From Helicobacteraceae bacterium (GTDB lineage Bacteria > Campylobacterota > Campylobacteria > Campylobacterales > Sulfurimonadaceae): a stretch of DNA of 64,000 nt. Shown in pieces: positions 5,711 to 47,300 of the stretch. A program made the position numbers and the translations under genes. Every line of letters starts with the position of its first letter. Position 1 is the stretch's first letter. Below the pieces are notes generated by a model. The model was given only the letters and a program-made list of their open reading frames with translations, made no database searches and was not told the origin of the DNA. Location: NCBI GenBank assembly GCA_947498025.1, contig CANMJR010000001.1, positions 62,001-126,000 of the forward strand, written 5' to 3'.

Positions 5711-5730
5711 TTAGTGTGTAACATCAGTTG
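5711..5730 (-). repeat. Solo terminal inverted repeat of the dispersed palindromic element
   Basis: On the minus strand it reads CAACTGATGTTACACACTAA and matches the outer end of the repeat copies at 13999-14171 and 45331-45439 with one or two changes. No element body follows. It encodes the last residues and stop of the acyltransferase, so it looks like a footprint left after loss of the rest of an insertion, or a partial insertion. Confidence 0.65.
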
Positions 5731-10026: not shown

Positions 10027-10401
10027 TTGAAATTATTAGTTGTTGATGATAGCTCTACAATGCGCCGTATTATTAAAAACACTTTGGCTCGTCTCGGTTA
10101 TAAGGACATTCTTGAAGGTGGAGATGGTTTAGAGGGATGGGCGGCTATGGATGCCAATCCAGATATTGACATGTTAATTACAGATTGGAATATGCCGGAG
10201 ATGAATGGTCTTGAACTTGTGAAAAAAGTTCGCGCGGATGCTCGCTTTAAAGATTTGCCAATCATTATGGTAACAACAGAAGGTGGCAAAGCAGAGGTTA
10301 TAACTGCTCTTAAAGCAGGAGTAAATAACTACATTGTGAAGCCGTTTACTCCACAGGTATTAAAAGAAAAACTTGGTGCCGTAATGGGTGTCACGGAGTA
10401 A
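10027..10401 (+). CDS. cheY: Chemotaxis response regulator CheY
   Basis: CheY carries the chemotaxis phosphosignal to the flagellar motor switch. The 124-residue single receiver domain has the acidic pocket Asp7-Asp8, phospho-acceptor Asp53 (ITDWNMPEMNG), the switch Thr in MVTTEGGK and Lys105 (IVKPFTP). The start is a TTG behind AAAAAAGGA, and no ATG fits the conserved N-terminus. It is followed by prmA with a one-base stop/start overlap; cheY-prmA-ftsH is a conserved order in Campylobacter. Confidence 0.95.
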   Translation: MKLLVVDDSSTMRRIIKNTLARLGYKDILEGGDGLEGWAAMDANPDIDMLITDWNMPEMNGLELVKKVRADARFKDLPIIMVTTEGGKAEVITALKAGVNNYIVKPFTPQVLKEKLGAVMGVTE

Positions 10402-11225: not shown

Positions 11226-11231
11226 CTGACC

Positions 11232-11361
11232 TTACGCACTTTTCAAAAAAGTGTGTAAAACACCTTGTAATTCTCGAAAAACAAAGTTTTTTGTAGCTTT
11301 AGGGGGTTGTAGGGACATTTGTCCCTGCCACTAAAACGGACGCGTTCGTTTTAGTGCGTAA
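11232..11361 (+). repeat. Dispersed palindromic element, copy A (full length, short form)
   Basis: This 130-bp element lies between prmA and ftsH. Its ends are the perfect inverted pair TTACGCACT / AGTGCGTAA, extended outward as TAACTGACC and CATCA. Inside are three hairpins: CGAAAAAC...GTTTTTTG, AGGGACA-TT-TGTCCCT and a long stem starting CACTAAAACG around ACGCGT. It has no coding capacity. The middle hairpin carries A-T where other copies carry T-A, a compensatory change. It could be read through, as prmA and ftsH are on the same strand. Confidence 0.85.
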
Positions 11362-11389
11362 CATCAAAAAGTAAATAGGAAATAAAAAT

Positions 11390-13372
11390 ATGGCAAAAAA
11401 AACTCCCAATAAAGACAATGACGATAATAATTTTTTTAATAAAAATCCGCTGATAACATTCGCAATTTTTTCTATTGCCGTTATTTTACTGTTTAAAGTA
11501 GTAATAGGTGAAAGTGGTGCTGGAGTTGATGGAGCTGTAGAAGGTGCAATTGCCGGAAACTCAGCTAGAGTAAAACAGGTAAGCTACTCGGAGTTAAAAT
11601 CATTAGTTGCATCTAAAAGTGTAGATAAAGTTGATATAGGGCAAAGCTATATTAAAGCCACTTCAGCGGATGGAAAGATATATACGACAAGAATAGTAAA
11701 AGGTGATACAAAGCTTGTAGATGAGCTTGATAAACAGGGCATACAGTATCAAGGTTTTAGCGAGACAAACTGGTTTACAGAGATGTTTGGATGGCTCTTC
11801 CCGTTTTTGATAATTATAGGTATTTGGATGTTTTTTGCAGGGAGAATGCAAAAAAGCATGGGAAGCGGTCTTTTGGGAATGGGTAATTCAAAAAAGATGG
11901 TTAATTCAGAAAAACCTAAAACAAAGTTTGATGATGTAGCGGGTGTAGAAGAAGCAAAAGAGGAGGTTCAAGAGATAGTGGACTTTCTAAAATACCCTGC
12001 AAGATATGTAGAAATCGGTGCTAAAATTCCAAAAGGCGTACTTTTGGTAGGAAGCCCAGGAACCGGTAAAACACTTCTAGCAAAAGCCGTTGCAGGAGAA
12101 GCGGATGTTCCATTTTTTTCTGTAAGCGGTTCTAGCTTTATTGAGATGTTTGTGGGTGTTGGTGCTGCTCGTGTTCGTGATTTGTTTGAACAAGCGAAAA
12201 AAGATGCTCCGAGTATTATTTTCATAGATGAGATTGATGCAATAGGTAAAAGTCGTGCCGCCGGCGGCATGATGGGCGGAAATGATGAGAGAGAGCAGAC
12301 GCTCAATCAGCTTTTAGCAGAGATGGACGGTTTTGGAACAGACACACCTATTATTATTTTGGCTGCAACAAACAGACCTGAAGTCCTTGACCAAGCGCTT
12401 CTTCGTCCAGGGCGTTTTGACAGACAGGTTTTAGTTGACAAGCCGGATTTTGCAGGGCGTATAAAAATTTTAAATGTACATGTGAAAAATGTAAAGATGG
12501 ATGCGGATGTTGAGCTAGAAGAAGTTGCAAGATTGACGGCAGGTTTGGCGGGCGCAGATTTGGCAAATATTGTAAATGAAGCTGCGCTTTTGGCTGGAAG
12601 AAAAAGCCAAAAAACCGTAAAACAGAAAGATTTATATGAAGCAGTTGAGCGAGCCATAGCAGGACTTGCCAAAAAATCTCGCCGCATCAATCCTAAAGAG
12701 AAGAAGATTGTTGCATACCATGAGAGTGGACATGCACTTTTAGCAGAGACAACAGACGGGGCGAAGAAGGTTTCCAAAGTTTCTATTGTTCCTCGTGGAC
12801 TAGCTGCACTTGGATATACACTCAATAAGCCTGAAGAAGATAAGTTTATGATGCAAAAATATGAACTTTTTGCAGAGGTGGATGTTCTTTTGGGTGGGCG
12901 AGCGGCCGAAGAGGTTTTTATCGGTGAAATTTCTACGGGTGCAGGAAACGACCTTGAGAGAGCAACAGAGATTATTAAATCAATGGTGCAGGTTTATGGA
13001 ATGACTGATGTTGCAGGGTTAATGGTTTTAGAGAAACAGAGACACTCCTTTTTGGGTGGTGCGCAGCAGGTTTCGCGTGAGTACAGTGACAAAATGGCAG
13101 AGAACATGGATGAGTTTATTAAGTCATCCTTAGCTGAGCGATACATTGCTGTCGTAGCTAGGCTCAATGAGTATAAGGGTGCAGTCGAAGAGATGGTGGC
13201 ACTTCTTTACAAAAAAGAGAATATTACCGGTGAAGAAGTTAGAGAGATTATTATTCATTTTGAAAAAGAGAACAATATGAAATCGAAAGTTTCTAATGTT
13301 ACAAATGATATAGAAGAAGAGCTAAAGCAAGACGCTACAATGTCTAAAGAAGAGCATAGAGATGAGAAATAA
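11390..13372 (+). CDS. ftsH: ATP-dependent zinc metalloprotease FtsH
   Basis: FtsH is the membrane-bound AAA+ protease that degrades membrane and regulatory proteins. The 660 residues show two TM helices (about 21-40 and 132-150) flanking a small periplasmic domain. They are followed by the AAA module with Walker A GSPGTGKT (221-228), Walker B IIFIDEID (276-283) and the second region of homology (LLRPGRFDR), then the zinc protease with HESGH (444-448). Its last 11 bases overlap the start of the psd-like gene. The order cheY-prmA-ftsH-psd-like is that of C. jejuni. Confidence 0.98.
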
Positions 13373-14009
13373 TCTATCCCCCGTAGCAAAAGAAGGGCTT
13401 AAATATATTGGCTGCTCGACGCTCCTTTTTGCCGTTTTTGCTATATTAGATTTTGAGATTTTAGAGTTTATAGCTTTTTTTGCATTACTCTTTTTTGTAT
13501 TTATCTATAGAAATCCAGAGAGAACAGCAATAATTTATGAAAAAAATAGTGTAGTAAGCCCAGTGGATGGGGTTGTGCTCTCTATAGAAGAGATTGATGA
13601 TAAAGAGTATGCTTATAAAATTGAGATTGAAAATAGTTTTTTTGATGTTGCTTTTTTGCGAGTACCATTCAACTCCTCTCTCAAATCAGTGAATATAAAA
13701 AGAGGTGCGAGACTTTCTAAAATTGGTGTATTGGCAAAAAAAATCAACGAACATGCAGAGCTTCTGTTTGAAGATGAAAACTCTAATAAAATGAAAGTTC
13801 TGCATATGTTAAAATGCAGTCCAGATGAGATTACAATAGGTATTTCAGAGGGTCAAAATCTTCTTCAATCTTTAAGATACGGTCTTATGATTAACGGTAT
13901 TACAACTCTTTATCTTCCTCAAAATTTTAGGTTAAATATCGGTGTAGGACAAGAAATCACAGCATCTGAATCACTTATAGGCTACTTTTTAACTGATATT
14001 ACGCACTAA
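13362..14009 (+). CDS. Phosphatidylserine decarboxylase-like membrane protein, no obvious GS cleavage site
   Basis: The 215-residue protein has two N-terminal membrane helices (about 14-48), YRNPER, then the decarboxylase-family core with SPVDGVV and IEIENSFFDVAFLRVPFNS. Short-type enzymes self-cleave at a Gly-Ser near the C-terminus to make the pyruvoyl cofactor. At the corresponding place this protein reads LRYGLMINGITTLYLP, with Gly-Ile instead, so activity is doubtful. The last five residues, TDITH, and the stop come from the end of repeat copy B. In C. jejuni pssA follows this gene; here it does not. Confidence 0.75.
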   Translation: MRNNLSPVAKEGLKYIGCSTLLFAVFAILDFEILEFIAFFALLFFVFIYRNPERTAIIYEKNSVVSPVDGVVLSIEEIDDKEYAYKIEIENSFFDVAFLRVPFNSSLKSVNIKRGARLSKIGVLAKKINEHAELLFEDENSNKMKVLHMLKCSPDEITIGISEGQNLLQSLRYGLMINGITTLYLPQNFRLNIGVGQEITASESLIGYFLTDITH

Positions 14010-14171
14010 AACGAACGCGTCCGTTTTAGTGGCAGCTGCTTATGTCCCTACAACCCCCTAAAGCTACGAAAATAAGCGAAGCGCTTTTCGCAAAGCGAAA
14101 ATGTTTCTTTAGTAAAATGAATTTTTCGAGAATTTCAAGGAGCTTTACTCATTTTTTATAAAAGTGCGTAA
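13999..14171 (-). repeat. Dispersed palindromic element, copy B (full length, long form)
   Basis: This 173-bp copy is inverted relative to copy A and bounded by TTACGCACT and AGTGCGTAA. It carries an extra segment of roughly 45 bp, shared with copy D, that holds the hairpin TTTTCGC-TTT-GCGAAAA. Its middle hairpin is broken (AGGGACATAAGCAGCT). The left end overlaps the psd-like gene, providing codons TDITH and the stop. With copy A it flanks ftsH-psd-like in opposite orientation. Confidence 0.85.
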
Positions 14172-33549: not shown

Positions 33550-33931
33550 CTGTATTTTCTTGTTTTGGTTTTTTCTCAAAAGTTATTTTGTCTGCTTCCG
33601 GAGCTGGCTGTGGAGCTTTTGTTTTTTCAATATCACCGATTATGTCATCACTTAAGTTTGTAAGATGATTACCTACTGCCGACATATCTGTGCTTCGCTT
33701 GAGATCATCGCCCGCTTTTAAAAGCTCTTTTTTATAAGCAAGTGCCTCTTCTTTTATTCCCGTGGCATTTATCTCTTGCTCGAGAGAATCTTGAATCGTT
33801 CCTATCGTTTTTTTGATTTGCTTAAAAAATTTAGCAACATCTACCATTACGCTTGGGAGTTTGTCCGGACCTAAAAAAAGTATAGCAATGACAATAATAA
33901 CAAGCATCTCGCCTAAACTGAAATCAAACAT
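33542..33931 (-). CDS. tatB: Sec-independent protein translocase TatB
   Basis: TatB joins TatC to form the substrate receptor of the Tat system. The 129-residue protein has the short N-terminal TM helix with the typical MFDFSLGEMLVIIVIAILFLGPDKLP (Glu8, then the F-G-P hinge), an amphipathic helix, and a charged variable tail. The length and Glu8 favour TatB rather than TatA. It is the first gene of tatB-tatC-queA; a repeat copy lies about 80 bp upstream. Confidence 0.92.
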   Translation of the reverse strand: MFDFSLGEMLVIIVIAILFLGPDKLPSVMVDVAKFFKQIKKTIGTIQDSLEQEINATGIKEEALAYKKELLKAGDDLKRSTDMSAVGNHLTNLSDDIIGDIEKTKAPQPAPEADKITFEKKPKQENTDV

Positions 33932-34020
33932 GTAAAACCTCTGAAATTATGATTGCGTGATTCTAGCTAAAGAATAGTTAAACTTTACATAAGCATATCA
34001 ATTTTGAAGTTCATAAATAT

Positions 34021-34114
34021 CTCGAAAAACAAAGTTTTTCGTAGCTTTAGGGGGTTGCAGGAACATTTGTCTCTGCAACTAAAACGGACGCGTTCGTTTT
34101 AGTGCGTAACATCA
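34021..34114 (+). repeat. Dispersed palindromic element, copy C (left-truncated short form)
   Basis: This copy starts at CTCGAAAAAC, lacks the left TTACGCACT end, and ends TTTTAGTGCGTAACATCA. The first hairpin is perfect (CGAAAAAC-AAA-GTTTTTCG). The middle hairpin (AGGAACATTTGTCTCT) keeps most pairs with one wobble and one mismatch. Its right edge carries TGA on the minus strand, the stop codon of hemW. Confidence 0.85.
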
Positions 34115-35170
34115 ATAAGAGGATAGAAACAGTGCAATCTCATCAGCCAAAAGATAGTTGCTGTTAAAAAAAAGACCATCCAAAAATTGTAACTTATTCT
34201 CATCAACGAGCATTTGCGCTCTTTTTAGCTCGGATATATTCAAAAGTTCACTCTTTACCCCGATGCAGGAGCGAAAACCTAAAAATATTTGCTCCATTTT
34301 TTTGTCATCTTTGCTGAGAGTTTCTACTTTTATGTCGAATGGATTTTTAATGTACTCTTCTAAAATTGTATTTGGATAAAATCTTTCGTTATTAAGCTTT
34401 CCGACGGCACCGCTTCCTACTCCGATGTAATCTTTATAAAGCCAATATCCAAGGTTGTGCCGACTTTGATATGTGCCGAAGTTACTAATCTCATACTGCT
34501 TGAAGTTCTGTTTTTTTATCTCTTTAAAAAGCCATGAAGTAAGGTTAAGAGTCTCTTTTGACATCTGCGGTTTTGACGCAAATGCAGTTCCCTCTTCAAT
34601 GGTGAGAGCATAGGCACTTATGTGGTTTATGGGTAAAGAAAAGGCTGTTTTGAGGTCATTTGAGAGAAGCTCTTTGGTGTCGCCGAGCGTTGCGTAAATC
34701 AAATCAAGAGAGATATTTTTAAAGCCTGCCTTCTCTGCGTTTAAAATCGCTTCTTTCGCCTGTTCGCCTGAATGAGCACGGTTGAGAAGTTTAAGTTTTT
34801 TATCATTAAAGCTCTGCACACCAAAGCTGATGCGGTTTACACCAAGGTGAAACATGCCAGAAAGCCACTCTGCAGTTGCGCTGTTTGGGTTGGCTTCGCT
34901 TGTTATTTCAATCTCTTTTTCCATGTAGGGTCTGAGGAGTGTAAAAATCGGTTCATAAAGCTTGGGCGAGATTGTCGAAGGAGTTCCTCCACCGATAAAG
35001 AGTGTTTCGATACTCTTTGGTTTGGCATCAAATCTTTGAAGTTCATACTCCAGCTGAGCGTAGAGAGCCTGCATGTACTCCTCTTTGAGATGAAATTTAT
35101 CAACATAAGAGTTGAAGGCACAATAGGAGCATTTTGAGTCGCAAAATGGGATATGAATGTATAAAAGCAT
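34112..35170 (-). CDS. hemW: Radical SAM HemW-like protein
   Basis: HemW is a radical SAM heme chaperone often misnamed as oxygen-independent coproporphyrinogen oxidase. The 352-residue protein starts MLLYIHIPFCDSKCSYCAF with the C-x3-C-x2-C cluster (Cys10, 14, 17), then LFIGGGTPST and NRISFGVQSFND. It lacks the N-terminal extension of true HemN. The reading frame stops on a TGA supplied by the edge of repeat copy C (ending LSSY), so the original C-terminus may have been a little different. Confidence 0.92.
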   Translation of the reverse strand: MLLYIHIPFCDSKCSYCAFNSYVDKFHLKEEYMQALYAQLEYELQRFDAKPKSIETLFIGGGTPSTISPKLYEPIFTLLRPYMEKEIEITSEANPNSATAEWLSGMFHLGVNRISFGVQSFNDKKLKLLNRAHSGEQAKEAILNAEKAGFKNISLDLIYATLGDTKELLSNDLKTAFSLPINHISAYALTIEEGTAFASKPQMSKETLNLTSWLFKEIKKQNFKQYEISNFGTYQSRHNLGYWLYKDYIGVGSGAVGKLNNERFYPNTILEEYIKNPFDIKVETLSKDDKKMEQIFLGFRSCIGVKSELLNISELKRAQMLVDENKLQFLDGLFFNSNYLLADEIALFLSSY

Positions 35171-35286
35171 GTGTAATTATAACTTTATTTTTAACTTTTC
35201 AGATTAGTTGTGTTTTAATATGTTTGAAAGTAATATCTTATATATAATTGACTTAGTGAATATTTCTTAGATTTTATGGAGAAGTT

Positions 35287-37458
35287 GTGAATACAAAGAG
35301 TGAGCTTTCGCTGCAACAAAAACTTGATGAACAGGAGTTTATCTTAAAGCAAAAGAATAAGATAATTGATGAAAATGTTTACATGACGACATCTGATTTG
35401 TCTGGAAGAATCACAGAAATTTCGCAAGCCTATCTTGATTTTACGGGATATAACAGAGAAGAAGTGATTGGCAAGAATCATAGTATTTTTAGAAATGAAA
35501 AAATGAATAGCTCAGTTATAAAAAATCTTTGGGAAACAATACAAAGTAATCAGCATTGGCATGGAGAGATAAAAAATCATAAAAAGAGCGGTGAAGAGTA
35601 TTGGATTGATACAGTAATCGCTCCTCTTTATGATAAAGAGCACAATAAAGTTGGTTATACATCCGTCAAGCAAGATATTACATATAGAAAAATGTTAGAA
35701 GAACTTTCGATAAATGATTCATTAACTTCAATGCACAACAGAAGATTTTTTGACCACTATATGAAGAGACAGATTAGACGCTCCAATTTAAACAAAGAAA
35801 AATTTGCGCTTTTACTGATCGAGATTGATTGTTTTAAAGAGTACAACGAACTTTATGGTGAAAGTCAGGGAGACAAAACTCTGATTGAGCTTACAATAAA
35901 TATGAAAAAAAGCATAAGCAAAGAGATAGATGACATGTTCAGAATTGGTGAAAAAGAGTTTGCCATTGTCATTTTGGACAAAGATGATGCTTATGTGCAG
36001 AATGTTGCTAAAAAACTGGTTACTTTTATAGAATCCCTTCACATCGAACATGCAAAGAGCAAGGTTTCAAAGTATATAACCGTCTCTATCGGTGCTATAA
36101 ATTTATATAACTACTTGCATAATATCAACAGCAATGACCTCTATAATATTGCGGAAAATAATCTCAATGCGGCAAAAAAGGCCGGTAAAAATCAGGTCGT
36201 ATTCGACATTAATGAATTTTATGTCAAAAATTTAACAAATATAGATAGCATTACAAAATTGCCAAACAGGGAAGCTTTAGTGAATGATATTTCACTGCTT
36301 CAAGAGGAAGCAATGCTTATAATACTTCATATAAACCAGATTATGTCCATAAAAGATATTTATGGTTTTGACATAGTGAAAAATCTTATTTCAAAAAAAG
36401 CAAAGCAACTGGATGAAGTCTTAATAGATGGTGAGGCATCGCTCTATAGCCTCAATTTACAGGAGTTTGCGATACTTATTACTAATAAATCTCTCTTTGA
36501 CAAGTATCTGCTGCTTCTAAAATATTCAATATTGATTGATAATATAGAGGAGGATGTCTATAAAAGCAGTGACAGCAGCTGTATTGTAACCGATTTTACA
36601 GCCGGCATCGCGTATGGTGTAAGTAGTATATTTAATCTTGCAGATGCTGTTTTGCAAGAGGCGATACTTACTAAAAAAAGCTATATTGTTTATAAAAACA
36701 ACCAAAGTACCAGAGAATTGCAAAAAGCCACTATTGAGAGAATGAGAGTTTATAAAAACGCACTCTACACAGGAAATATCATTCCCTATTTTCAGCCAAT
36801 TATTGACATGAAAGATGGCAAGGTTATGAAATATGAAGCTCTGGCAAGACTGCAAACAGACAGCGGTGAAATAATTACACCCTACTACTTTTTAGATTCT
36901 GCAAAAGAGGACAAAACTTTTGAGTATTTTACAAGACAGATGATGCAAAAAGTGTTTAATGTTTATGCGGTAAAAAAAACTCACATCTCCATAAATCTTA
37001 CTTATGAAAATATAAGTTCAGAGAGCATGCTTAATTACATAATTAATAGACTTGATACTTATGGTGGAGAGGGCATTACCTTTGAAATTGTAGAGTCAGA
37101 GGATATAAAAGATTATGAAGTCATTGAAAAATTTATCCTTATGGTGAAGGGGTATGGATGTAAGGTTTCTATAGATGATTTCGGCTCAGGCTATTCAAAT
37201 TTTACAAATATCATAAAATTAAATATTGACTATATTAAACTTGATGGCTCTTTGGTAGAAAAATTGAATAGTGATTTGAATGTTAGACATATGATAGAGG
37301 GGCTTTTGATATTTTCTAAAAATGCGAATATCAAAACTATTGCAGAGTTTGTAAGTTCTAAAGAGCTAGCAGATAGTGTTAAAGAGCTCGGTATTGATTA
37401 TTCTCAAGGGTACTATTATGGAGAACCAGGAAGTGCAGAGAGTTATGATTTAGTTTAA
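35287..37458 (+). CDS. PAS protein with two degenerate GGDEF domains and an intact EAL domain
   Basis: The 723-residue soluble protein starts with GTG after TGGAGAAGTT. It contains a PAS-PAC module (about 25-135, Aer-like DLSGRITEISQAYLDFTGY...HSIFRNEKM) and a GGDEF-fold domain whose signature is GEKEF (about 220). A second, more worn GGDEF-fold follows (about 315-470, reading LNLQEF). The EAL domain has YEALARL (517-519), FEIVESE, IDDFGSGYSN, YIKLDGS and SQGYYYGEP. Cyclase activity is unlikely; c-di-GMP hydrolysis is plausible with the GGDEFs as sensors. Confidence 0.9.
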   Translation: MNTKSELSLQQKLDEQEFILKQKNKIIDENVYMTTSDLSGRITEISQAYLDFTGYNREEVIGKNHSIFRNEKMNSSVIKNLWETIQSNQHWHGEIKNHKKSGEEYWIDTVIAPLYDKEHNKVGYTSVKQDITYRKMLEELSINDSLTSMHNRRFFDHYMKRQIRRSNLNKEKFALLLIEIDCFKEYNELYGESQGDKTLIELTINMKKSISKEIDDMFRIGEKEFAIVILDKDDAYVQNVAKKLVTFIESLHIEHAKSKVSKYITVSIGAINLYNYLHNINSNDLYNIAENNLNAAKKAGKNQVVFDINEFYVKNLTNIDSITKLPNREALVNDISLLQEEAMLIILHINQIMSIKDIYGFDIVKNLISKKAKQLDEVLIDGEASLYSLNLQEFAILITNKSLFDKYLLLLKYSILIDNIEEDVYKSSDSSCIVTDFTAGIAYGVSSIFNLADAVLQEAILTKKSYIVYKNNQSTRELQKATIERMRVYKNALYTGNIIPYFQPIIDMKDGKVMKYEALARLQTDSGEIITPYYFLDSAKEDKTFEYFTRQMMQKVFNVYAVKKTHISINLTYENISSESMLNYIINRLDTYGGEGITFEIVESEDIKDYEVIEKFILMVKGYGCKVSIDDFGSGYSNFTNIIKLNIDYIKLDGSLVEKLNSDLNVRHMIEGLLIFSKNANIKTIAEFVSSKELADSVKELGIDYSQGYYYGEPGSAESYDLV

Positions 37459-37472
37459 GATTATTTTTGATA

Positions 37473-37504
37473 TGCACAAAAACGAACAAGTCCATTTTTG
37501 TGCA
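37473..37504. repeat. Hairpin remnant related to the palindromic element end
   Basis: TGCACAAAAACG and CATTTTTGTGCA form an inverted repeat around AACAAGTC. It resembles the outer long stem of the dispersed element in altered form and lies 20 bp left of copy D, suggesting nested or successive insertions. Confidence 0.5.
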
Positions 37505-37523
37505 TTTATATTGATAATGTCAT

Positions 37524-37658
37524 TGTAATTCTCGAAAAACAAAGTTTTTTCTAAAGAAACATTTTCGCTTCGCGAAAAGCGATTCTCTTGTTTTGTAGCT
37601 TCAGGGGGTTGTAGGGACTTTAGTTCCTGCAACTAAAATGGACGCGTTCGTTTTAGTG
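37524..37658 (+). repeat. Dispersed palindromic element, copy D (long form)
   Basis: This copy includes the additional block found in copy B with the hairpin TTTTCGC-TTC-GCGAAAA. The middle hairpin is AGGGACT-TT-AGTTCCT (one wobble). The right end is altered: TTTTAGTG is followed by TTTTTATCGCG instead of CGTAACATCA, so the terminal repeat is lost. It lies between convergent genes and ends 3 bp from the MCP stop codon. Confidence 0.85.
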
Positions 37659-37661
37659 TTT

Positions 37662-38774
37662 TTATCGCGCAAGCGTATTTAGAGTATGGATAATATCATC
37701 CATCTTATCACTTATGCGGCTTACTTCATCAGAAATATCATTTACTTCATCTGCATTTCTGTTGAGTGTGTCGGAAGTTTCAGAGATAGATTGAATTAAA
37801 ATATTCGTGGTTGCCGATGTTTCAGCTAAACTTTTTTGTGTTCTCTCAGCTAGCTTTCTCACTTCATCGGCTACAACTGCAAAGCCTCTTCCATGCTCGC
37901 CCGCTCTGGCTGCTTCGATGGCTGCATTGAGTGCAAGAAGGTTCGTCTGATCTGCTATGTCACCGATAGTAGAGAGTATCTCTTTTGTCTCATTCGCATT
38001 TGAAACGAGTGTTTGAAGACTACCGACCATTTCGTTCTCTTTTTGAGAGACATCATGTATTCTATGAACGGTGTGTTGAATCATATCTTTTAGTTCAATA
38101 ATTGTAGTGTCGGTTATATTGCTTATAGTTTTATTGAGAGCACCCGAAGTTTCAAGTATATGATTTTGAGAGTTTTCATTCTCTTTTTGCATATTCTGAA
38201 GTGACTCACCGAGTGAATTTATATTGTTGAGTAAATCAGCCATCTTTGCTTCAACTTTTATTTCACTTCTTGCGTTAAATTGACCGTTTGAAAAGTTTTG
38301 CAAAGTTTTGATTGCATTGTCGAGATTTATTTCTGATGATGTTAACATGTTGTTCATACTGTTTCTGAGAACATGCACATAAGGAGTCTTGGAATCAGCC
38401 CCAACTCTGCAAGAGTAGTGACCATTTGAGACTTTATCTGCAAGAAGCACCATCTCTCCTGCAACTTTTGTATCCTCTAAAACTGATTTTTCATAAATTC
38501 CTATAAGGGTATTTATATCTTTTTCAACTTTATCTGTGGTTGCATGATTAATATTGATTTTATTTCTTTTAAACTCCAGCATCTCATCTATTTCTGTTAA
38601 TACTCTATGAATATTTGAGTTGCCGGAAGAATTTTGCATCTGTAAAACTATGATCAGTATGAAAACAACAACTGCTAAAATAGCGTGTATTACAGCTGAA
38701 TCTGTTAAAAATAGAGAGAGAATTAAAATCATAAAAGCGACTGTTATCGTAATGTTTTTTTGTAATGAGTTCAT
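37662..38774 (-). CDS. Methyl-accepting chemotaxis protein with no periplasmic domain
   Basis: The 370-residue protein has two adjacent N-terminal TM helices (about 8-25 and 27-46) with no periplasmic sensor between them. A linker/HAMP-like region follows (about 50-170), then the cytoplasmic signalling hairpin with the near-invariant tip [18 protein letters not shown] followed by [18 protein letters not shown]. Lacking its own sensor, it probably reads out the PAS protein encoded just upstream, as CetA reads CetB in C. jejuni energy taxis. The tail after the tip is short. Confidence 0.88.
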
Positions 38775-38784
38775 AAGGTGTTTC

Positions 38785-39168
38785 CTATTTTAATGTTTTG
38801 TATAATGCTTGCGCTTCACTAATCTCTTGAGCCGAAGGTTTTCTTCTGCATGAGAGATGTGTTCGAGCATGCCTTATTTCATCATACATCGGATAAACAG
38901 TTGCAAAAACCCAGTAAAAACCGCCATCTTTTGTTCTGTTTTTTACATAGCCTCGCCAAATTTTATCTTGTTTGACAGTGTCCCACAAATCTTTAAACGC
39001 AACCTTTGGCATGTCGGGATGCCGCACAATATTGTGAGGTTTACCGATTAATTCATCTATCGTGTAGCCGGCTATTTTACAAAAATCATCGTTTGCAAAT
39101 AAGATAACGCCCTTTTCATCCGTCTGTGATACTAGGAAATCATCACTTTTTAAGAAATATTCTCGCAT
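38785..39168 (-). CDS. PAS-domain energy-taxis sensor (Aer/CetB-like)
   Basis: The 127-residue soluble protein is a single PAS domain of Aer type: [20 protein letters not shown], then the [22 protein letters not shown] signature, and [16 protein letters not shown]. Aer-type PAS domains bind FAD and sense redox state. The MCP gene starts 10 bp downstream. This sensor-plus-transducer pair parallels the bipartite CetB/CetA system of C. jejuni; FAD binding is inference from the family. Confidence 0.85.
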
Positions 39169-39335
39169 GTATTTCCTCCCATGCTCTAATAATATTGTTC
39201 TTTGATATATCTATACTTAGTCTGTAAACATCAGCAATTATAGTTCCAACCTTCAATATTCATGTGTTATGTGAAATTATCTTATTTTAATAGCAAATTA
39301 TGTACAATTTCGGCTACTAAAATTTAGGTGTTTTA

Positions 39336-39806
39336 ATGAGCAAAGAAGATTTATATCGTCCTAATGTGGCGATGATTATTGTTTCAAGCAATTATCCAGA
39401 AAAAAAAGAGATTTTTATTGCGCAAAGAAACGATTTACTCGATATTTGGCAGTTTCCTCAAGGCGGTATAGACAGCGGAGAGGAGATAGAAGAGGCACTT
39501 TTTCGTGAACTTGAAGAAGAGATTGGAACAAATAAAGCTAAAATAATCGCAGAGTATCCGGAGTGGATTTCCTATGATTTTCCTGAAAAAATAGCTAAAA
39601 ATATGAAACCGTTTAAGGGGCAGACACAGCGATATTTTTTGCTTAAACTCAAAAAAAGTGCGATTATTAACTTAGAGACAAAACATCCTGAGTTTATATC
39701 GCACAAATTTGTACATGTCGATGAGGTTCTTGGTTTGACAGCGCATTTTAAAAAGCATGTCTATGAAACGGTGATAGAATATTTTAAAAAAGAGGGTTAT
39801 CTTTAA
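39336..39806 (+). CDS. rppH: RNA pyrophosphohydrolase (Nudix)
   Basis: RppH removes pyrophosphate from mRNA 5' ends, opening them to decay; it was called NudH or an Ap4A hydrolase. The 156-residue protein starts with [12 protein letters not shown] and has a complete Nudix box from Gly48 ([20 protein letters not shown], then IG). The later block YDFPEKI...[13 protein letters not shown] is typical of RppH/IalA. It is followed by lysC after 1 bp, the same order as in Helicobacter and Campylobacter. Confidence 0.93.
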
Positions 39807-39807
39807 C

Positions 39808-41019
39808 ATGTTAATAGTACAAAAATTTGGCGGAACAAGCGTAGGTGATTTGGAGAGAATCCAAAATGTGGCAAATCGTGTTGTTGAGACAAAAAAAGCC
39901 GGCAACAATGTTGTAGTGGTGGTTTCTGCCATGAGCGGAGAGACAAATAAACTTGTAGCCTATGCGGAGCACTTCTCAAAAAACCCTTCAAGAGGTGAGA
40001 TGGATATGTTGCTTAGCTCAGGTGAAAGAGTAACGGCTTCACTTTTGGCGATAGCACTTTGTGAAATGGGCTATGATGCAGTCTCCATGAGCGGTAGAAG
40101 AGCAGGCATTGTAACGGATAATATTCATACAAAAGCTAGGATTGAAGAGATAGATCCGGCGGCGATGAATAAGGCAATAAAAGAGGGCAAAATAGTTGTT
40201 GTTGCAGGTTTTCAGGGTGTTTCTCAAGACGGAAACGTAACGACGCTCGGCCGTGGAGGAAGTGACCTCTCTGCAGTTGCTATTGCGGGAGCTTTAAGAG
40301 CTGATTTATGTGAGATTTATACGGATGTAAGCGGTATATTTACAACTGACCCCCGAATAGAACCAAAGGCCAAAAAGCTTAACAAAATCTCATATGAAGA
40401 GATGCTGGAACTTGCAAGTCTGGGAGCAAAAGTGCTTCAAAACCGTTCAGTTGAGCTGGCAAAAAAATTAAATGTAAATTTGGTAACACGAACAAGTTTC
40501 TCAAACGAAGAGGGAACATTAATAACGAAGGAAGAAAATATCATGGAAAAACCATTAGTAAGCGGAATAGCATTAGACAAAAATCAAGCGCGTATCTCTT
40601 TGATGGGCGTTAAGGACAGACCGGGGATAGCGTCAGACATTTTTAATAAACTCGCAGAGGCCGAAGTAAATATTGATATGATAATTCAAAATATTGGACA
40701 AGACGGTACTGCAAATATAGATTTTACTGTGGCAGTCGGCGATTTGTTTGATGCCAAAGCAGTTGTGGATTTATTTGTTGAGAGCGGAGATATTAGAGAG
40801 GAATCTTATGATGAAAACATCTGTAAAGTCTCTATTGTGGGCGTTGGAATGAAGTCACATACGGGCGTTGCTGCAAAAGCTTTTGCAACAATGGCGGCAG
40901 AAAACATAAACATAAACATGATTTCAACTTCAGAAATAAAAGTTTCTATGGTCATCGCAGAAAAATATGCAGAGTTAGCTGTGAGAAGTTTACATAGTGC
41001 GTATGAGTTAGACAAATAA
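39808..41019 (+). CDS. lysC: Aspartate kinase
   Basis: LysC phosphorylates aspartate, the first step to lysine, threonine, methionine and diaminopimelate. The 403 residues comprise the kinase domain ([16 protein letters not shown] at the start, [32 protein letters not shown]) and two C-terminal ACT domains (about 260-330 and 340-403) that bind the feedback amino acid. It begins 1 bp after rppH and hobA follows after 8 bp. An in-frame ATG at the ACT boundary could give a beta subunit, but no strong ribosome site marks it. Confidence 0.97.
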
Positions 41020-41027
41020 ACGCTCAC

Positions 41028-41576
41028 ATGCAAGATTTTGCGCAGTGGAGTTTGGATGCTATCAGGGAAGAGGGCGGCAGTTTAAGTTGGCTCGAAGAAC
41101 ATAGATTTGATTGGACAACAACTACATCTTTGGCATTAGAACAGATATTGGACGGCAAAACAGTTATTTTAATAACGGATGAAAAAAGAAAGTGGTTTGA
41201 GACATACATGCTCACTTCTATAAATAAAGCGAATATGGATAGACCTCTTTTACCAATTGTGAGTATAGATGCACTTTATAGTCACTATGGCACGGTAAAT
41301 GGGGGAGAGATGATAGACATGTTGGATGATATGATTTCACTCTCTTTTAAGAGCGACTACTTTTTTTGGTATGTCGGACATGGCGATGACAAAAGAGCAG
41401 ATGTAGCTAAAAGAAAAGATAATAGTTACCTTTGGCTCTTTGATGAAGATTTTCATAATGCTTTTACGCTTAAATCCTATGACACGCATTTGGATATAAA
41501 ACTTTTGCAACTTTTCCGTCTTTTTAACTCATCTCTCAATGCAACTATGTTTGGAGAGGTTGATGTTACCTCATGA
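41028..41576 (+). CDS. hobA: DnaA initiator-associating protein HobA
   Basis: HobA tetramers bind DnaA domain I and promote orisome assembly; the structural equivalent in E. coli is DiaA. The 182-residue protein is recognised by its start (MQDFAQWSLDAIREEGGSLSWLEEHR), the RKWFETYMLTSIN segment, FFWYVGHGDD, and SYLWLFDEDF...HLDIKLLQLFRLFNSSLNATMFG, which parallel H. pylori HP1230. It lies between lysC and holB, as in Helicobacter. This gene is a phylum marker. Confidence 0.9.
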   Translation: MQDFAQWSLDAIREEGGSLSWLEEHRFDWTTTTSLALEQILDGKTVILITDEKRKWFETYMLTSINKANMDRPLLPIVSIDALYSHYGTVNGGEMIDMLDDMISLSFKSDYFFWYVGHGDDKRADVAKRKDNSYLWLFDEDFHNAFTLKSYDTHLDIKLLQLFRLFNSSLNATMFGEVDVTS

Positions 41577-42180
41577 GAGCAAAAAAGGTCATATCCTCAT
41601 TGCAACTGAGATTGAAGCAGAATTTCAGAGACTAAAATTAGAATTAAAACCTCATAGAGTTGTAGGTTTTATAAGAGAGAAATTTCTCCTCGAAGATGCC
41701 AAAGCTGTTATAGCTGAGGCGTACATAAGCGAATCTCAAACAAAATATATAGTCATGGGTGCGTTAGAGTTTCATACGGTCTCTCAAAATTCTCTGCTTA
41801 AAATGCTCGAAGAGCCTCCTAGAAACATAGAATTTATCATCATCTCCCCTACAAAATCAAACCTTCTGGCAACCGTTCGCTCACGACTTCCCATCCTTCA
41901 CGGTGAAAGTTTACATGAAATTATGCAAGTAGATTTAAACCTAGCCAGATTGGATTATGCGCAAATATTCTCCTTTTTAAAAGAGCATGCAAGAATAAAA
42001 AGAAGTGAAGCAAAACTTCTTCTTGAAGCACTCTATCACAGGGCAACAGTAGTTGACATGCTCATCCTTAGCTCTGCTCAGCTGGAAAATTTTGACAAAG
42101 CCTACAGGCTTCTGGAACTAAACTCAAGACCTCAAAGTATATTTGCGCTGATACTTATGGGTTTTGTAGGTGAAAAATAG
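41563..42180 (+). CDS. holB: DNA polymerase III delta' subunit (short epsilon-type)
   Basis: The delta' subunit is part of the clamp loader. The 205-residue protein contains the sliding-clamp-loader remnant NSLLKMLEEPPRNIEFIIISPTKSNLLATVRSRLPI, the sensor-like SRC region being absent. It is much shorter than E. coli HolB but equals the Helicobacter version. The start is the ATG at 41563 after GGAGAGG, inside the end of hobA (14-bp overlap), rather than an earlier in-frame ATG with no ribosome site. folP follows after 2 bp. Confidence 0.85.
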   Translation: MLPHESKKGHILIATEIEAEFQRLKLELKPHRVVGFIREKFLLEDAKAVIAEAYISESQTKYIVMGALEFHTVSQNSLLKMLEEPPRNIEFIIISPTKSNLLATVRSRLPILHGESLHEIMQVDLNLARLDYAQIFSFLKEHARIKRSEAKLLLEALYHRATVVDMLILSSAQLENFDKAYRLLELNSRPQSIFALILMGFVGEK

Positions 42181-42182
42181 CC

Positions 42183-43325
42183 ATGCAGGTTGAGAAGTTA
42201 TCAAATACAATTGATGCAAAAAAGTATCTTAAAAATTTGGGTGTGGATGGCGGCGGGTTAGCTATTCTTGCATCAAAAATCAAACATCATGTGATTTATA
42301 TACGAGATTTGCATGTCGGAGCTGCCAACATCCTGAAGCAAGACGCACTCTCGATAGGTGCAGATTTAGCGGTGCCTCGCGGAACTGTAATCGCTGCAAC
42401 GCAACATGTGGATTGCATTTTGATAGCTACCGATAAGCAATTAAAAACATTGAGCAAAAAAGAGTCGGCACAGCCTTTCGGGCTCAAAGAGTTGGCAAAA
42501 AAACTTCAAGAATTTACGACTCTTGACATGCCGCAACATGTAGAGATAATGGGAATTATTAACGCAAATAGTGACAGCTTTTACTCAAATAGCAGATTTA
42601 GAGATGCAGAGGCAATAGAGGCAATAATAAAAATGATAGAGGAAGGTGCAGACAGTATAGATATCGGCGGAGTTTCATCTCGCCCGAATGCACCGAAAGT
42701 TACTGTTGAAGAAGAACTGGAAAGAGTAAAGCCAATTTTGGACGCGATAGCAAAAGAGAGACTTTATGAGAGAGTAAAGTTTAGTATCGACAGTTATGAA
42801 CCACGCGTTATTTCCCATGCCTTGCAGAGCGGATTTAAAATAGTGAATGATATAACGGGATTGCAAAACGATGAGGTTTGCAGGCTCTGTGCTTCTTATG
42901 GCGCAACCGCCGTAATTATGCACATGCAAGGGACACCGCAAACCATGCAGGAGAATCCTAAGTATGAAAATATACTCAGTGATGTTTACACATTTTTAAA
43001 AGAGAGAATTCTAAAAGCTGAATCTTTCGGACTCAGTGATATAATAGTCGACGTAGGCATAGGTTTTGGAAAATCGTTAGAGGATAACTTAAAATTGATT
43101 AAACATTTGGAAAATTTTATGACGCTCGGAAAACCTATTTTGGTGGGTGCTTCAAGAAAATCTCTGATTGACAAAATCACGCCGTCCTCCGTGGGGGAGA
43201 GATTGGGGGGAACCATAGCTTTGCATTTAGAGGCTATAAATAACGGTGCATCCATAGTGCGCGTGCATGATGTAAAAGAGCATCTTCAGGCTTTAAAAAT
43301 AAAAAAAGCATTAGATGCAATTTAA
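42183..43325 (+). CDS. folP: Dihydropteroate synthase with N-terminal extension
   Basis: FolP condenses pterin pyrophosphate with p-aminobenzoate in folate synthesis. The 380-residue protein has an extra N-terminal domain of about 115 residues, as in Helicobacter, then the TIM barrel with IMGIINANSDSFYSNS, SIDIGGVSSRPNA (the usual GGxSTRP as GGVSSRP), VNDITGL, IVDVGIGFGKSLEDNL and VGASRKSLI. It is the last gene of rppH-lysC-hobA-holB-folP. The Thr-to-Ser in the STRP position keeps the hydroxyl. Confidence 0.93.
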   Translation: MQVEKLSNTIDAKKYLKNLGVDGGGLAILASKIKHHVIYIRDLHVGAANILKQDALSIGADLAVPRGTVIAATQHVDCILIATDKQLKTLSKKESAQPFGLKELAKKLQEFTTLDMPQHVEIMGIINANSDSFYSNSRFRDAEAIEAIIKMIEEGADSIDIGGVSSRPNAPKVTVEEELERVKPILDAIAKERLYERVKFSIDSYEPRVISHALQSGFKIVNDITGLQNDEVCRLCASYGATAVIMHMQGTPQTMQENPKYENILSDVYTFLKERILKAESFGLSDIIVDVGIGFGKSLEDNLKLIKHLENFMTLGKPILVGASRKSLIDKITPSSVGERLGGTIALHLEAINNGASIVRVHDVKEHLQALKIKKALDAI

Positions 43326-43340
43326 GGTGGGTTACAGAAA

Positions 43341-44675
43341 ATGAAATTCCCGGTTGTCGGTGACATAGCTAGCAAAATAGTTATAGCGGTTAATATACAT
43401 GATAGTGCTACAAAAGCAATCGAACAGATGTTAGAGTATGAACATCGGCATGTTGTGGTAGAGGACAAAAACGAATATTTTATTATAAGCGTGATAGATA
43501 TTTTACATTTGCAAGAGAAAAAAATAACACTTGATACGCCGCTGCATGCGTTAAAATTACGAAAAATTCCGGTGATAAACAGACATAAAAATGTTTTAGA
43601 TACCTTGGAATTTTTGAGTGACAGCGTTGAGTATATCTGTGTAACAAATGATGATGAGACACTGTATGGGCTTTTGACGCATACGGATATAACAAGCAAT
43701 ATAGATCCGGACACATTGATGGAGAATTATAAACTTCAAGATTTTTTAAAGCTTGGAAGAAGGATGAAATGGGTCTCTAAAGATGAAAAAATATCTGATT
43801 TAATTAGTGATATGGTAGATTCCGGTTATGACAATGTGATTGTTGTGGATGATTTGAAGCCTATTGGAATACTTACGACAAAAGATATTGTGAGATTGAT
43901 TAAAACACAAAAAGATTTGAATGTAGCGGTGCAAATTCACATGTCAAAGCCTGTTGATAGCATTGGCCAAAGCTCATCTATCAGAGAAGCTCTCAATTTT
44001 TTAAAAAGCAAGCACTATAAAAGGGTTGTTGTCGTTGATAATGAAGGGAAGCTATCGGGAATTATTTCACAAAAAGAGCTTATCTCATTAACATACTCAA
44101 AATGGGTTGCACTTATGAAAGAGTATCAAGAGGAGTTGAGTGAAATAAATGTGCTGCTAGAAGACAAAAACAGAGAGTATCAGACAATCGCTTCTACAGA
44201 CTCCTTGACCGGTCTCTATAACCGTTATAAATTCTCTGAACTCTATTCCTCCTCACTTTTAGCCATGAGACAAAGACACAATGAGATGTCTTTGATTATG
44301 CTAGATATTGATTTTTTTAAAAAAGTGAATGACACCTATGGGCACAATGCAGGTGATAAAGTTCTTATACAGGTCTCCCATGCTTTGCTTAAAACGCTGA
44401 GGAATATAGATATAGTTTGCAGATGGGGCGGAGAGGAGTTTGTCGTGCTTCTGCCTACTGCATCGCTTGAGAATGCTTATACTTTGGCTCAAAAGATAAA
44501 AACGTATATAGAAGAGCTGGAGATAGATGTTGTAGGGCATATAACGGCTAGTTTCGGCGTAGCTCAAGTTTTAGAGAGAGACGACATGCAGAGCGTACTT
44601 GACAGAGCCGATAAGGCTCTTTATTTAGCTAAAAAGTCCGGCAGAAATTGTGTGAAAACATGCAGTGAAATTTAA
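43341..44675 (+). CDS. CBS-domain diguanylate cyclase
   Basis: The 444-residue soluble protein contains about four CBS motifs in the first 255 residues (e.g. SATKAIEQMLEYEHRHVVVED; SDLISDMVDSGYDNVIVVDD; IREALNFLKSKHYKRVVVVDN), which commonly bind adenylates. A coiled linker (about 256-285) leads to a GGDEF domain with an intact GGEEF (RWGGEEFVVLLP) and DIDFFKKVNDTYGHNAGDKVL. A diguanylate cyclase tuned by nucleotide binding is inferred. It starts 15 bp after folP and may be on the same transcript. Confidence 0.9.
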   Translation: MKFPVVGDIASKIVIAVNIHDSATKAIEQMLEYEHRHVVVEDKNEYFIISVIDILHLQEKKITLDTPLHALKLRKIPVINRHKNVLDTLEFLSDSVEYICVTNDDETLYGLLTHTDITSNIDPDTLMENYKLQDFLKLGRRMKWVSKDEKISDLISDMVDSGYDNVIVVDDLKPIGILTTKDIVRLIKTQKDLNVAVQIHMSKPVDSIGQSSSIREALNFLKSKHYKRVVVVDNEGKLSGIISQKELISLTYSKWVALMKEYQEELSEINVLLEDKNREYQTIASTDSLTGLYNRYKFSELYSSSLLAMRQRHNEMSLIMLDIDFFKKVNDTYGHNAGDKVLIQVSHALLKTLRNIDIVCRWGGEEFVVLLPTASLENAYTLAQKIKTYIEELEIDVVGHITASFGVAQVLERDDMQSVLDRADKALYLAKKSGRNCVKTCSEI

Positions 44676-44763
44676 AAAGATTGCTACGCTACACATGCCT
44701 TGGCAGGCATAGCATGTAAAAATGATGAAGTAATGATAGGTTCCGTAAAACCTATGTTGCAGG
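44676..44763. other. Intergenic hairpins between convergent genes
   Basis: Two inverted repeats lie here: ACATGC...GCATGT with inner ATGCC/GGCAT (about 44691-44716), and ATAGGTT-N6-AACCTAT (44736-44755). Neither is followed by a strong T run, so termination is only possible. No gene fits the gap. Confidence 0.4.
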
Positions 44764-45300
44764 CTACTTCGCCTCTTTTATAAAGGCTTTTACTATCTCT
44801 TGTCTCTCAAGGGGTCTATCTCCCGCTGAACGACCAAGTGTAGAAACCTCATTTAACTTTTTGATAGTCTCCATCGATGCTTCGTCCGCATGACCAAATA
44901 TGGTATGTCTTCCGTTGAGCCATGGAGTTTTAGCTGTTGTTATAAAAAACTGACTTCCATTTGTGTTTTCTCCGGCATTTGCCATGGCAAGAATACCGGC
45001 ACTATCAAAAGTTTTGTTTTTGTATTCATCTTTAAAGGGTTTTTTCCAAATACTATCTCCACCGCGTCCGGTCTCAGTTGGGTCTCCGCCTTGAATCATA
45101 AAATTTTTGATAATTCTATGAAATGCAATTCCATTATAGTAGCCATTTTTTACATGCGTGGTGAAATTTTCCACCGCAAGTGGGGCAACATCCGGATATA
45201 ACTCTAGCTCAATCGTGCCTTGGGTAGTTACTAAAACTACATGAGGGTTCTCTGCCCACAAACTCAATACCACAAATAGTGATAAAATAAACGCTTTCAT
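44764..45300 (-). CDS. Periplasmic cyclophilin-type peptidylprolyl isomerase
   Basis: The enzyme catalyses cis-trans isomerisation of prolyl bonds. The 178-residue precursor has a signal peptide (MKAFILSLFVVLSLWA) and a compact cyclophilin domain with FHRIIKNFMIQGGDPTETGRGG, GILAMANAGENTNGSQFFIT and WLNGRHTIFGHAD, all key active-site stretches. It should act in the periplasm on envelope proteins. It is convergent with the CBS-GGDEF gene; repeat copy E lies upstream of its start. Confidence 0.92.
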   Translation of the reverse strand: MKAFILSLFVVLSLWAENPHVVLVTTQGTIELELYPDVAPLAVENFTTHVKNGYYNGIAFHRIIKNFMIQGGDPTETGRGGDSIWKKPFKDEYKNKTFDSAGILAMANAGENTNGSQFFITTAKTPWLNGRHTIFGHADEASMETIKKLNEVSTLGRSAGDRPLERQEIVKAFIKEAK

Positions 45301-45330
45301 ATCTTTTCCTTCTTTTTTTTTTGTAAACCG

Positions 45331-45439
45331 ACCTTGTAACTCTCGAAAAACAGAGTTTTTCGTAGCTTTAGGGGGTTGTAGGGACTTTAGTCCCTGCCAC
45401 TAAAACGGACTTGTTCGTTTTAGTGCGTAACATCAGTTG
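45331..45439 (+). repeat. Dispersed palindromic element, copy E (short form) within the msrB 3' end
   Basis: The copy has the hairpins CGAAAAAC-AGA-GTTTTTCG and AGGGACT-TT-AGTCCCT, and a long outer stem whose core reads GACTTGTT instead of GACGCGTT. It ends TTTTAGTGCGTAACATCAGTTG. The msrB frame reads through about two thirds of it before stopping at a TAA in the GGGGGTTG region. Confidence 0.85.
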
Positions 45440-45808
45440 TAAACATACCGAATTTATACAGTATCTTAGTCCAGTTGGTTTTGGACCATCCTCAAATACA
45501 TGCCCCAAATGGGCATCACAGTTTGAACATCTGATTTCGGTACGAATCATACCATGCGTCACATCTTTTATCTCTGTAATTGCACCATCTAAGCAACTAT
45601 AATAACTCGGCCAACCACTGCCGGAGTCAAACTTGGCAGTTGAGTCAAAGAGCGGTGAATCACAACAAACACATCTGTATAAACCGTCATCTTTACTATT
45701 GTAAAACTCTCCACTAAACGGTGCTTCAGTACCATGAAGTCTGCATACGAAAAAAGCTTCCGGGCTTAGCTGCGCTCTCCACTCCTCTTCAGTTTTTGTT
45801 ATCTTCAA
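45368..45808 (-). CDS. msrB: Peptide methionine-R-sulfoxide reductase with repeat-derived tail
   Basis: MsrB reduces methionine-R-sulfoxide in proteins. The 146 residues include two zinc-binding CxxC pairs (CVCCDSPLF and CSNCDAH), the SGSGWPSYY motif, and the catalytic Cys in GLRYCINS. The usual ending SLKFIP is absent: after INSV the frame enters repeat copy E and adds [20 protein letters not shown] and VPTTP before stopping. Enzyme core residues are intact, so activity may persist. Its start overlaps the end of the ATPase gene by 20 bp. Confidence 0.92.
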
Positions 45809-47300
45809 AGTCGCTCCTCAAGCTCATTAATTTTTTACATTCATCATCATGCAATATATAAACACTATCGCTGCAAATATTGTAGGCATACTCAAGCTCT
45901 ATCAATGAAGCAAAGCAGATATCCATAAGTATTACAAACTTGGCTTCAATAGTGTTTGTATCAGAATAAGTTGCTAACAGGAGTTTTTCAATATCTTGGT
46001 CTATTAATTTTAGAGAATTATCTAGCAATACAACGCTGTCTTTTATATAATGTTCTAAATCTTCACTTAATTTTTCTCTGCTTAATGCACTGCTAACAAC
46101 CAAAATATCCTTTGGCATGTGGAATTCTAACAGAGATGAAATTATTTGTAATGCCTTAGCATATGGGTTTGCTTTTACAAAAAGAACTTTTTTGCTCTCT
46201 TTAACAAAGTTTCTGTTAAATGTATAGGTTTCATTCAGCAGTTTGTTGCTTCTCACTAAGAGTAAATTTGCTCCATGTTGTATATGTTTTAAGTAGTATT
46301 TGAATTCGTTGGAAAACATATCAGAGTCATCACCAATTATTACATCCGCGACGTTGAACTCTTTGTGTATTAAATTTTTACTTGCATCTATCTCGTCATC
46401 TAAGGGGGCTCTATTTAGTTTTTTTAGATGTCTGCCCAGCAGTTCTAATGGTGTGATAATCTCTATTTCGGTAGCATCAAACTCTATTTGCGCACGATTT
46501 ATTATATTTACTAGTTTTCTTTTTAGTAAATCACATGAGAGAGCAGTTGGTTTAATAATTATAATTTTAAGGTTTGGATTTCTTAGTTTTTGTAACATTA
46601 CCTTTAAGAGGAGTGAGGTTGTTTTTCCACTTCCCGTGGGTGAACTAAGAAGTTCAAAAGATAAAAAAGGAGAGTCTATAAACTTTTGTTGCTCTTTTGT
46701 TGCCATGTTAAGATAACTTTTATTATCCAGTATTGCATATTGAACCACAATATTGCCAATAATAGTATTCACATTGGGAAGGGGCTCTTTTGGCAGCGGA
46801 ATATTTTTTATTTTCTTTATAATTTCATCTTGGGATAAGTTATTAAACATAATTCTCTCATATGGCATCAGCCCTTGAAAGGATGGGTCTAAATGCTCAT
46901 ATTGATCACTATTGAGGTGCTCCATGATTACATAGTTGTATATTGGCAGATGACTGATATGTGTCATTTCACTGAATTTTCGCTGCATGAATGTATGTGA
47001 TTTTTCAAAGGCTAATGTCTCATAGGAAGGCTCTTGTTTAGAGGCTTTTTCTAATTTTGCATTTTTTAAATCATCATAGAGCCAATCTTTGTGTTCAAAG
47101 AGATATACCCCACGCACACTGTCTAGAATAAGTAATGGAATAAAAATAGTTTCGGCATGATGATATATTGTGATGTTTTCATAGACTAATAGATTGTTTT
47201 TTAGACTGGCAGATTTCAGTTTCTTTAAAATTATTGATTCTGGAGCTTTTAGGGATTTTTGATGTTTTTTAAATATGTTTAGGGAAAAGAGTGATTTCAT
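45789..47300 (-). CDS. P-loop ATPase, possibly SF1 helicase-related, unknown role
   Basis: The ATG at 47300 is preferred over a TTG at 47324, which lies inside the HU terminator; it gives 503 residues. The N-terminal 75 residues ([33 protein letters not shown]) look faintly like a NERD nuclease-related domain. The middle has a Q-motif-like [10 protein letters not shown] and Walker [11 protein letters not shown] (219-228), with a Walker B-like DVIIGDDSD near 320. Clear C-terminal helicase motifs are lacking. It is probably a divergent ATPase; function unknown. Confidence 0.65.

Follow-up and report, generated by a model that had tools for sequence, protein, structure and literature searches.

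A Sulfurimonas MITE with IS-like ends and a target motif that probably accounts for its adjacency to stop codons

The stop codon of hemW (34112-35170 or 35074, minus strand) in the 64,000-nt stretch of DNA analysed here (the window) lies at the very edge of a copy of a short repeat. As a sequence-only reading of the window had pointed out, the repeat end TGATGTTACGCACT (34101-34114, minus, exact) opens with this TGA (34112-34114, minus). The name hemW comes from that reading, the sole Pfam family shown being Radical_SAM. The question raised by this locus is why repeat ends and gene stops should coincide. We consider it likely that the repeat is a MITE with IS-like ends, that its preference for the target TTAWTAA accounts for the stop adjacency, and that the element itself supplies replacement stops.

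The window contains seven repeat sites, and the 14-mer end occurs in it six times with at most two mismatches, as compared with 0.34 expected. The features at these sites are:

5713-5727, minus strand: solo right end; lpxL (5711-6607) reads across it and ends in TDVTH
11219-11225, plus strand: 7-bp target duplication AAAGTAA on the left, with the TAA stop of prmA as its final triplet
11226-11367, plus strand: complete 142-bp element, with prmA on one side and a gene starting at 11390 on the other
11368-11374, plus strand: right 7-bp target duplication AAAGTAA
13993-14177, minus strand: 185-bp element with an internal insert of about 44 nt; psd (13362-14009) reads into it and ends in LTDITH
34004-34115, plus strand: element copy at hemW, right end (34101-34115) intact, left terminal repeat gone
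34112-34114, minus strand: hemW stop TGA, provided by the element end
37523-37658, plus strand: copy with the internal insert and degenerate ends; converging genes end at 37458 (plus) and 37662 (minus, MCP)
45330-45436, plus strand: copy with its left end shortened; the msrB frame (45368-45808) continues into it for 22 codons
54250-54357, plus strand: copy in the gap that separates two divergent genes, one endonuclease III-like and the other at 54460

Pfam agrees with the names lpxL, psd, msrB, prmA (10401-11225, PrmA) and MCP. The genes terminating at or in a repeat are prmA, psd, lpxL, hemW and msrB. The earlier count of four frame-ending sites among the seven is borne out, but the element-borne stops in use are at +4 only in hemW and lie inside the element at +17 in lpxL and psd and at +69 in msrB, and prmA is a fifth gene. 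The MCP stop (37662-37664) is, as claimed, 3 bp from the recognisable end of its copy.

The repeat is a non-autonomous transposon (MITE) of about 142 bp, or about 184 bp, of Sulfurimonas and its relatives, and the hemW copy is a relic of it. The sequence CTGAYSTTACGCACT forms the element ends, in inverted orientation, at both ends of two-ended copies, which are mostly 140-143 or about 184 bp long. The element is short, multicopy and without a transposase gene: 42 of 57 sites with target duplications hold less than 260 bp, and 30 of the 57 hold 140-149 bp. The host genome has at least 48 matches, at least 40 of them at E below 1e-33 (the best 40 of 140 candidates were scored), and the 14-nt end with at most one mismatch is found there 74 times, as compared with once for the reversed pattern. 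Besides the host, 19 of 134 genus-mates carry the exact 23-base end pattern, which is also present, among the matches listed, in Sulfurimonas, Sulfuricurvum, Sulfurovum, Sulfurospirillum and others; a 74% copy is carried by the Sulfuricurvum kujiense plasmid pSULKU01. No description of the element was found among the matches listed from the open PMC literature.

The palindromic insert of about 44 nt, located in the window at 37552-37594 and 14072-14115, occurs in 31 places in the host genome. The idea that it is a second mobile unit was dropped, because its position is identical in the 20 loci read of the 31; it marks, instead, the longer subfamily of about 184 bp. The same or a similar palindromic unit lies within the loop of the first hairpin in a few copies (L065, L077, L046). 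A second short type of about 266 bp, with the same ends, is found in two genomes, G166 and G167 (L178, L179, L185, L234, L235), and its copy L178 has a long subterminal palindrome. At L067, contig C18 stops exactly on an element end, which suggests that assembly breaks may conceal more copies or IS.

A hemW match is present in 125 genomes (host included), and 30 of these loci were read. In 28 of the 30 the conserved end of the protein ([AS]DEI.. and a few residues) meets the stop, with no element in the approximately 57 nt shown; the element is at hemW only in the host and its sister G068 (86% identical). The native stop of the relatives lies approximately at the preceding codon (FLSS and stop). 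The hemW end in G067 reads TCCTCT TGA AGATTTTTTAACTATTC and that in the host TCCTCT TAT TGA TGTTACG.., and past the element of the host, sequence similar to the downstream region of G067 picks up again. Read in this way, the native stop was displaced, and the element TGA ends the gene about one codon later. The target duplication of hemW itself is no longer readable, which counts against our main explanation. The G068 hemW copy contains the 44-nt insert and the host copy does not.

Insertion-free alleles of hemW, psd, msrB and lpxL are present in relatives. The psd product ends ..GYFLTDITH in the host and ..GYFSK in G068, and relatives without the insertion end in SK and similar. In msrB the final 22 residues are element-encoded in the host, and the G068 protein ends ..CLNLQKK. 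The lpxL product ends ..IYTTDVTH in the host, ..IYTTDVIH in G068 and ..IYN in G067. In another species (G132, L311) an element copy lies at the lpxL 3' end, a few bases from its place in the window.

Target duplications were sought at 61 two-ended copies, the partner ends of which were picked by end similarity only. A 7-bp duplication is exact at 16 of them and has at most one mismatch at 29, as compared with 0.7 and 4.3 in permuted flanks. In a larger non-redundant set that includes IS relatives, 30 of 123 are exact and 57 within one mismatch (1.0 and 6.6 expected), the exact matches here being inflated because partner ends were partly picked by best duplication. The length is constant at 7 bp. 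The 57 sites comprise 42 MITEs (8 in the host genome, the rest in relatives), 8 IS at least 1100 bp long, 5 elements with lengths of 260-364 bp, and 2 elements the ends of which deviate (L137), and the tests below were repeated on the 42 MITE sites.

The consensus of the duplications is TTAWTAA, which is palindromic and so has a TAA on either strand. TAA or TTA is present in 53 of 57 duplications (39 of 42 for the MITE alone). At sites that lie in divergent gaps or have no stop within 30 bp, the figures are 28 of 30 and, for the MITE alone, 22 of 24, as compared with a background of 37% of the 7-mers in the 41 intergenic gaps used below. The motif score of the observed sites within their own gaps is at the 98th percentile (median). 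The target preference that the sequence-only reading had offered as one option thus exists for the palindrome TTAWTAA, but, on these small sets, not for stop codons as such.

To relate the sites to stops, empty sites were modelled by joining the flanks, and the 57 sites were mapped onto called genes. The gene calls come from our own codon-usage model, which missed msrB in the window and gives approximate starts. Twelve of the 57 sites overlap a called gene, the stop of which follows within 26 nt in six cases; of the remaining 45, 41 have both neighbours present and lie in a gap no longer than 1500 bp. Among these 41 (MITE and IS), a stop lies inside the target in five, as compared with 1.9 when sites are placed uniformly in the same gaps (P = 0.03) and 4.3 when the placement is weighted by the motif (P = 0.42). 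For the MITE alone there are 4 of 34, as compared with 1.6 (P = 0.06) and 3.2 (P = 0.40). The weight matrix was leave-one-out in both tests, of which the MITE-only test is the weaker, and the pooled set contains IS relatives. Stops within 10 nt number 7 against 5.2 (P = 0.20) in the pooled set and 6 against 4.0 (P = 0.16) for the MITE alone, an excess that, on only 34-41 sites, leaves room for a small direct stop preference. With a matrix from far-from-stop sites only, 4.2 are predicted against 5 seen (P = 0.40), and 3.1 against 4 for the MITE (P = 0.36). Since the motif is the same far from stops and predicts the adjacency, it looks primary, with stop adjacency following from it. For each single insertion this precedence of motif over stop is presumed.

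A wider test covered 129 insertions, obtained from 333 raw ends that form 197 flank clusters, less 57 that overlap called genes and 11 for which no gap was usable; the matrix in this test was not leave-one-out, and IS-copy ends were kept among the non-duplicated class. Where duplications are within two mismatches (n = 40), a stop lies in the target in 7, as compared with 3.2 uniform and 6.2 with the motif. Where there is no clear duplication (n = 89), there are 27 against 12.7 with the motif, a value reached in 0 of 1500 draws. Gap medians are alike between classes (130, 106 and 127). With a left-flank stop within 40 nt, the target contains the stop in 5 of 9 duplicated copies (3.3 expected), 6 of 14 two-ended copies without duplication (3.9 expected, P = 0.14), and 15 of 23 one-ended copies (6.7 expected, 0 of 4000 draws). 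The excess beyond the motif is carried mainly by one-ended copies, the far flanks of which are approximate, and in copies without clear duplications it is perhaps survivorship. The genome-wide distance test that had been proposed, run here on copies from the host and many relatives, therefore gives a divided answer: the distances differ from uniform placement, but those of copies with recognisable duplications do not differ from the motif-weighted expectation. An earlier null over -60 to 0 of 780 gene ends (39 of 89 at 0 and -3 against 12.5, far above the motif prediction) was distrusted because downstream positions are often coding, and was replaced by the within-gap nulls.

The positions of stops relative to the ends are discrete. 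Of 310 unique ends, 126 have a gene stop within -60 to +100, with spikes at 0 (24, the stop directly abutting the element), -3 (15, the stop three bases short of it), +4 (26, a stop of the element itself, of which 25 are TGA, the hemW class) and +17 (7, the element TAA, with the tail DVTH). The 310 were de-duplicated on 25 bp of flank only, and a few, including hemW, are the same gene in two species. In the typed consensus, the frames entered from the right end stop at 4, 17 and 69, and those from the left end at 4, 33 and 71. All three frames are closed within about 70 nt in 36% of shuffles, and a stop falls in the first 4 nt in 11%; three-frame closure within 70 nt is therefore ordinary, and so early a stop less so. 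The 26:7 frame bias is roughly as the motif predicts (21.8 of 33, P = 0.08). Tolerance, the other option of the sequence-only reading, is supported for insertions in the last codons, where the element gives the stop, and perhaps for the non-duplicated copies, which adjoin stops more often than the motif predicts.

The end sequence matched in 71 of the 228 family genomes scanned, host included, and these matches led to an IS. In G156 it is intact, 1102 bp long, with ends CTGACCTTACGCACC, the duplication TTAGTAA and a 350-aa transposase. IS with MITE-like ends are present in G156 and G185, and the IS measures 1102-1203 bp; the relative in G185 has an 8-bp repeat, TTAAGTAA, not 7 bp, which counts against the main explanation. 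The transposase matches DDE_5 and DDE_Tnp_1, and its nearest solved structures by sequence are Tn5 proteins (E about 0.08). Relatives of it at E ≤ 1e-20 are present in 17 of the 228 family genomes, and none was found in the host genome at E ≤ 1. The sister G068 contains a 364-bp relic with the duplication TTAATAA. With no transposase relative found in the host and only a relic in G068, mobilisation of the MITE in trans is inferred, which counts against the main explanation. A search of the first loci for an element of 0.6-4.6 kb with the same ends gave no transposase; the one end pair annotated, L061 of 1.6 kb, has ordinary genes inside.

The family placement of the IS needs review. By NCBIfam profile it belongs with IS701 (IS701_2, NF049921, 342.5 bits, cutoff 250), and the best IS4 profile (NF049925) gives 105 bits, below its cutoff of 250. 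IS701 elements have a 4-bp duplication and no full YREK motif (PMC2266710), whereas this IS shows 7 bp (8 bp in G185), and a full YREK, Y(2)R(3)E(6)K, can be read by eye in its YQKRWKVEEYHKSLK. The same study gives the ISPepr1 subgroup of IS4 a 7-8 bp duplication, AT-rich targets, mostly a CT start, and a size of 1500-1600 bp (PMC2266710). The CT ends, AT-rich target, 7-bp repeats and YREK of this IS match that subgroup, but its size does not. It thus combines the IS701 profile with ISPepr1-subgroup features and is smaller than either. This combination of an IS701 profile with 7-bp duplications, full YREK and CT ends is seen at L176 (1182-2283).

These observations can be combined as follows. 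The DDE transposase of the 1.1-1.2-kb IS with the same terminal repeats would move the MITE in trans, favouring the 7-bp AT-rich palindrome TTAWTAA. Because this palindrome has a TAA on each strand, TAA stops are often within good targets, and duplication of the 7 bp would keep such a stop whole at the element edge. When the element lands a few codons before a stop, translation would enter it and be stopped by the right end at +4, +17 or about +69, so that an insertion just inside a gene would cost few C-terminal residues.

The system is of a kind already known; the link between target and stop codon is the new part. The closest parallels are the following. Small MITEs of Coxiella burnetii, QMITE1/QMITE2, extend over the 3' ends of functional genes and so change the C-terminus, with little change in protein mass, and the reason for their 3'-end preference is called unknown there (PMC5896051). 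Here, in contrast, the motif with TAA on both strands can explain the bias, as far as copies with recognisable duplications are concerned. The RUP element of Streptococcus pneumoniae resembles ours in being an intergenic MITE with terminal repeats shared with an IS (IS630-Spn1) and with stops in all frames, but its targets hold the TA dinucleotide (PMC2229807), as compared with 7-bp TTAWTAA and another transposase family here. The enterobacterial RU-1 is likewise found fused to a gene 3' end, with the normal stop removed and the protein extended, but it gives an ORF of tens of codons (PMC2759123), whereas the right end here stops two of three frames within 17 nt. In the present element, a measurable target motif, unchanged far from stops, can explain why copies with recognisable duplications adjoin stops, and the leftover excess elsewhere can be put to the test as survivorship. 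Annotators should be aware that some C-termini in these genomes are transposon-encoded.

Going further, one may ask whether the two-strand stop target and the CTGA ends evolved so that 3'-end insertions keep or replace the stop cheaply. We regard such a safe-landing design as doubtful. If it were true, copies would persist as permanent gene ends and spread tails like TDVTH over unrelated proteins.

It is similarly unlikely, in our estimation, that the element is retained at gene ends for a job, as a structured 3' end or terminator, with retention setting the pattern of the old copies. The excess of stops in one-ended copies given above argues for it, as does the structure of the element: four hairpins lie on one strand (z = -7.05; other strand -5.2), and across 61 distinct hairpins of the right end 94.3% of the cells are paired, as compared with 88.5% shuffled, with both sides of the first hairpin changed in 25 cells against 5.1. 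These rows were selected from 222 ends through 138 with the 3' arm as expected to 62 distinct and 61 used, which favours pairing, and by pairs only 3 have both sides changed, against 1.8 shuffled (78 of 500 shuffles reach it). Pairing may also owe as much to maintenance of the palindrome in the DNA as to a function of the RNA. Four of the seven terminator-like sites in 33900-46000 lie within two element copies, but seven is the shuffle level (7.8), and an Rfam search of the window gave nothing at gathering score. Two-ended non-duplicated copies show no clear excess of stops. Moreover, 91 of the 126 stop-near ends are right ends (201 of 310 overall), so the gene mostly reads the less structured strand.

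Direct recognition by the transposition machinery, whether of stop codons, of gene 3' ends or of terminator hairpins, is much less probable still. The uniform-null result for the 41 sites speaks for it, as do all 129 insertions taken together (34 against 18.8 even motif-weighted). Against it, the excess is gone under motif weighting in copies with recognisable duplications, the motif is unchanged far from stops, and 13 of 40 duplicated insertions lie in divergent gaps, where neither side is a stop side. Terminator-like hairpins, which the sequence-only reading had suggested as the cue, are not supported in this role: they are at 9 of the 57 modelled empty sites as compared with 7.0 expected, no enrichment, and there is less structure at the empty sites than 40-160 nt away from them.

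Least probable of all is sequence-indifferent insertion with purifying selection alone leaving copies in gaps and gene ends, which would fit the avoidance of start codons (targets begin ≤14 nt from one in 0 of 41, motif-weighted expectation 5.2, P = 0.001, and in 4 of 129 in the larger set, 12.2 expected with the motif) and the stop enrichment beyond the motif in copies without clear duplications, but is ruled out as sole cause by a strong motif that holds far from stops. Alongside the TTAWTAA preference of the MITE, selection stays as a contributing cause, and a survival bias may act at gene ends. In the 41-site set, 16 targets begin 15-25 nt from a start codon, as compared with 9.6 expected, just upstream of the would-be ribosome-binding site; both start-codon cut-points (14 and 15-25 nt) were set after the data had been seen.
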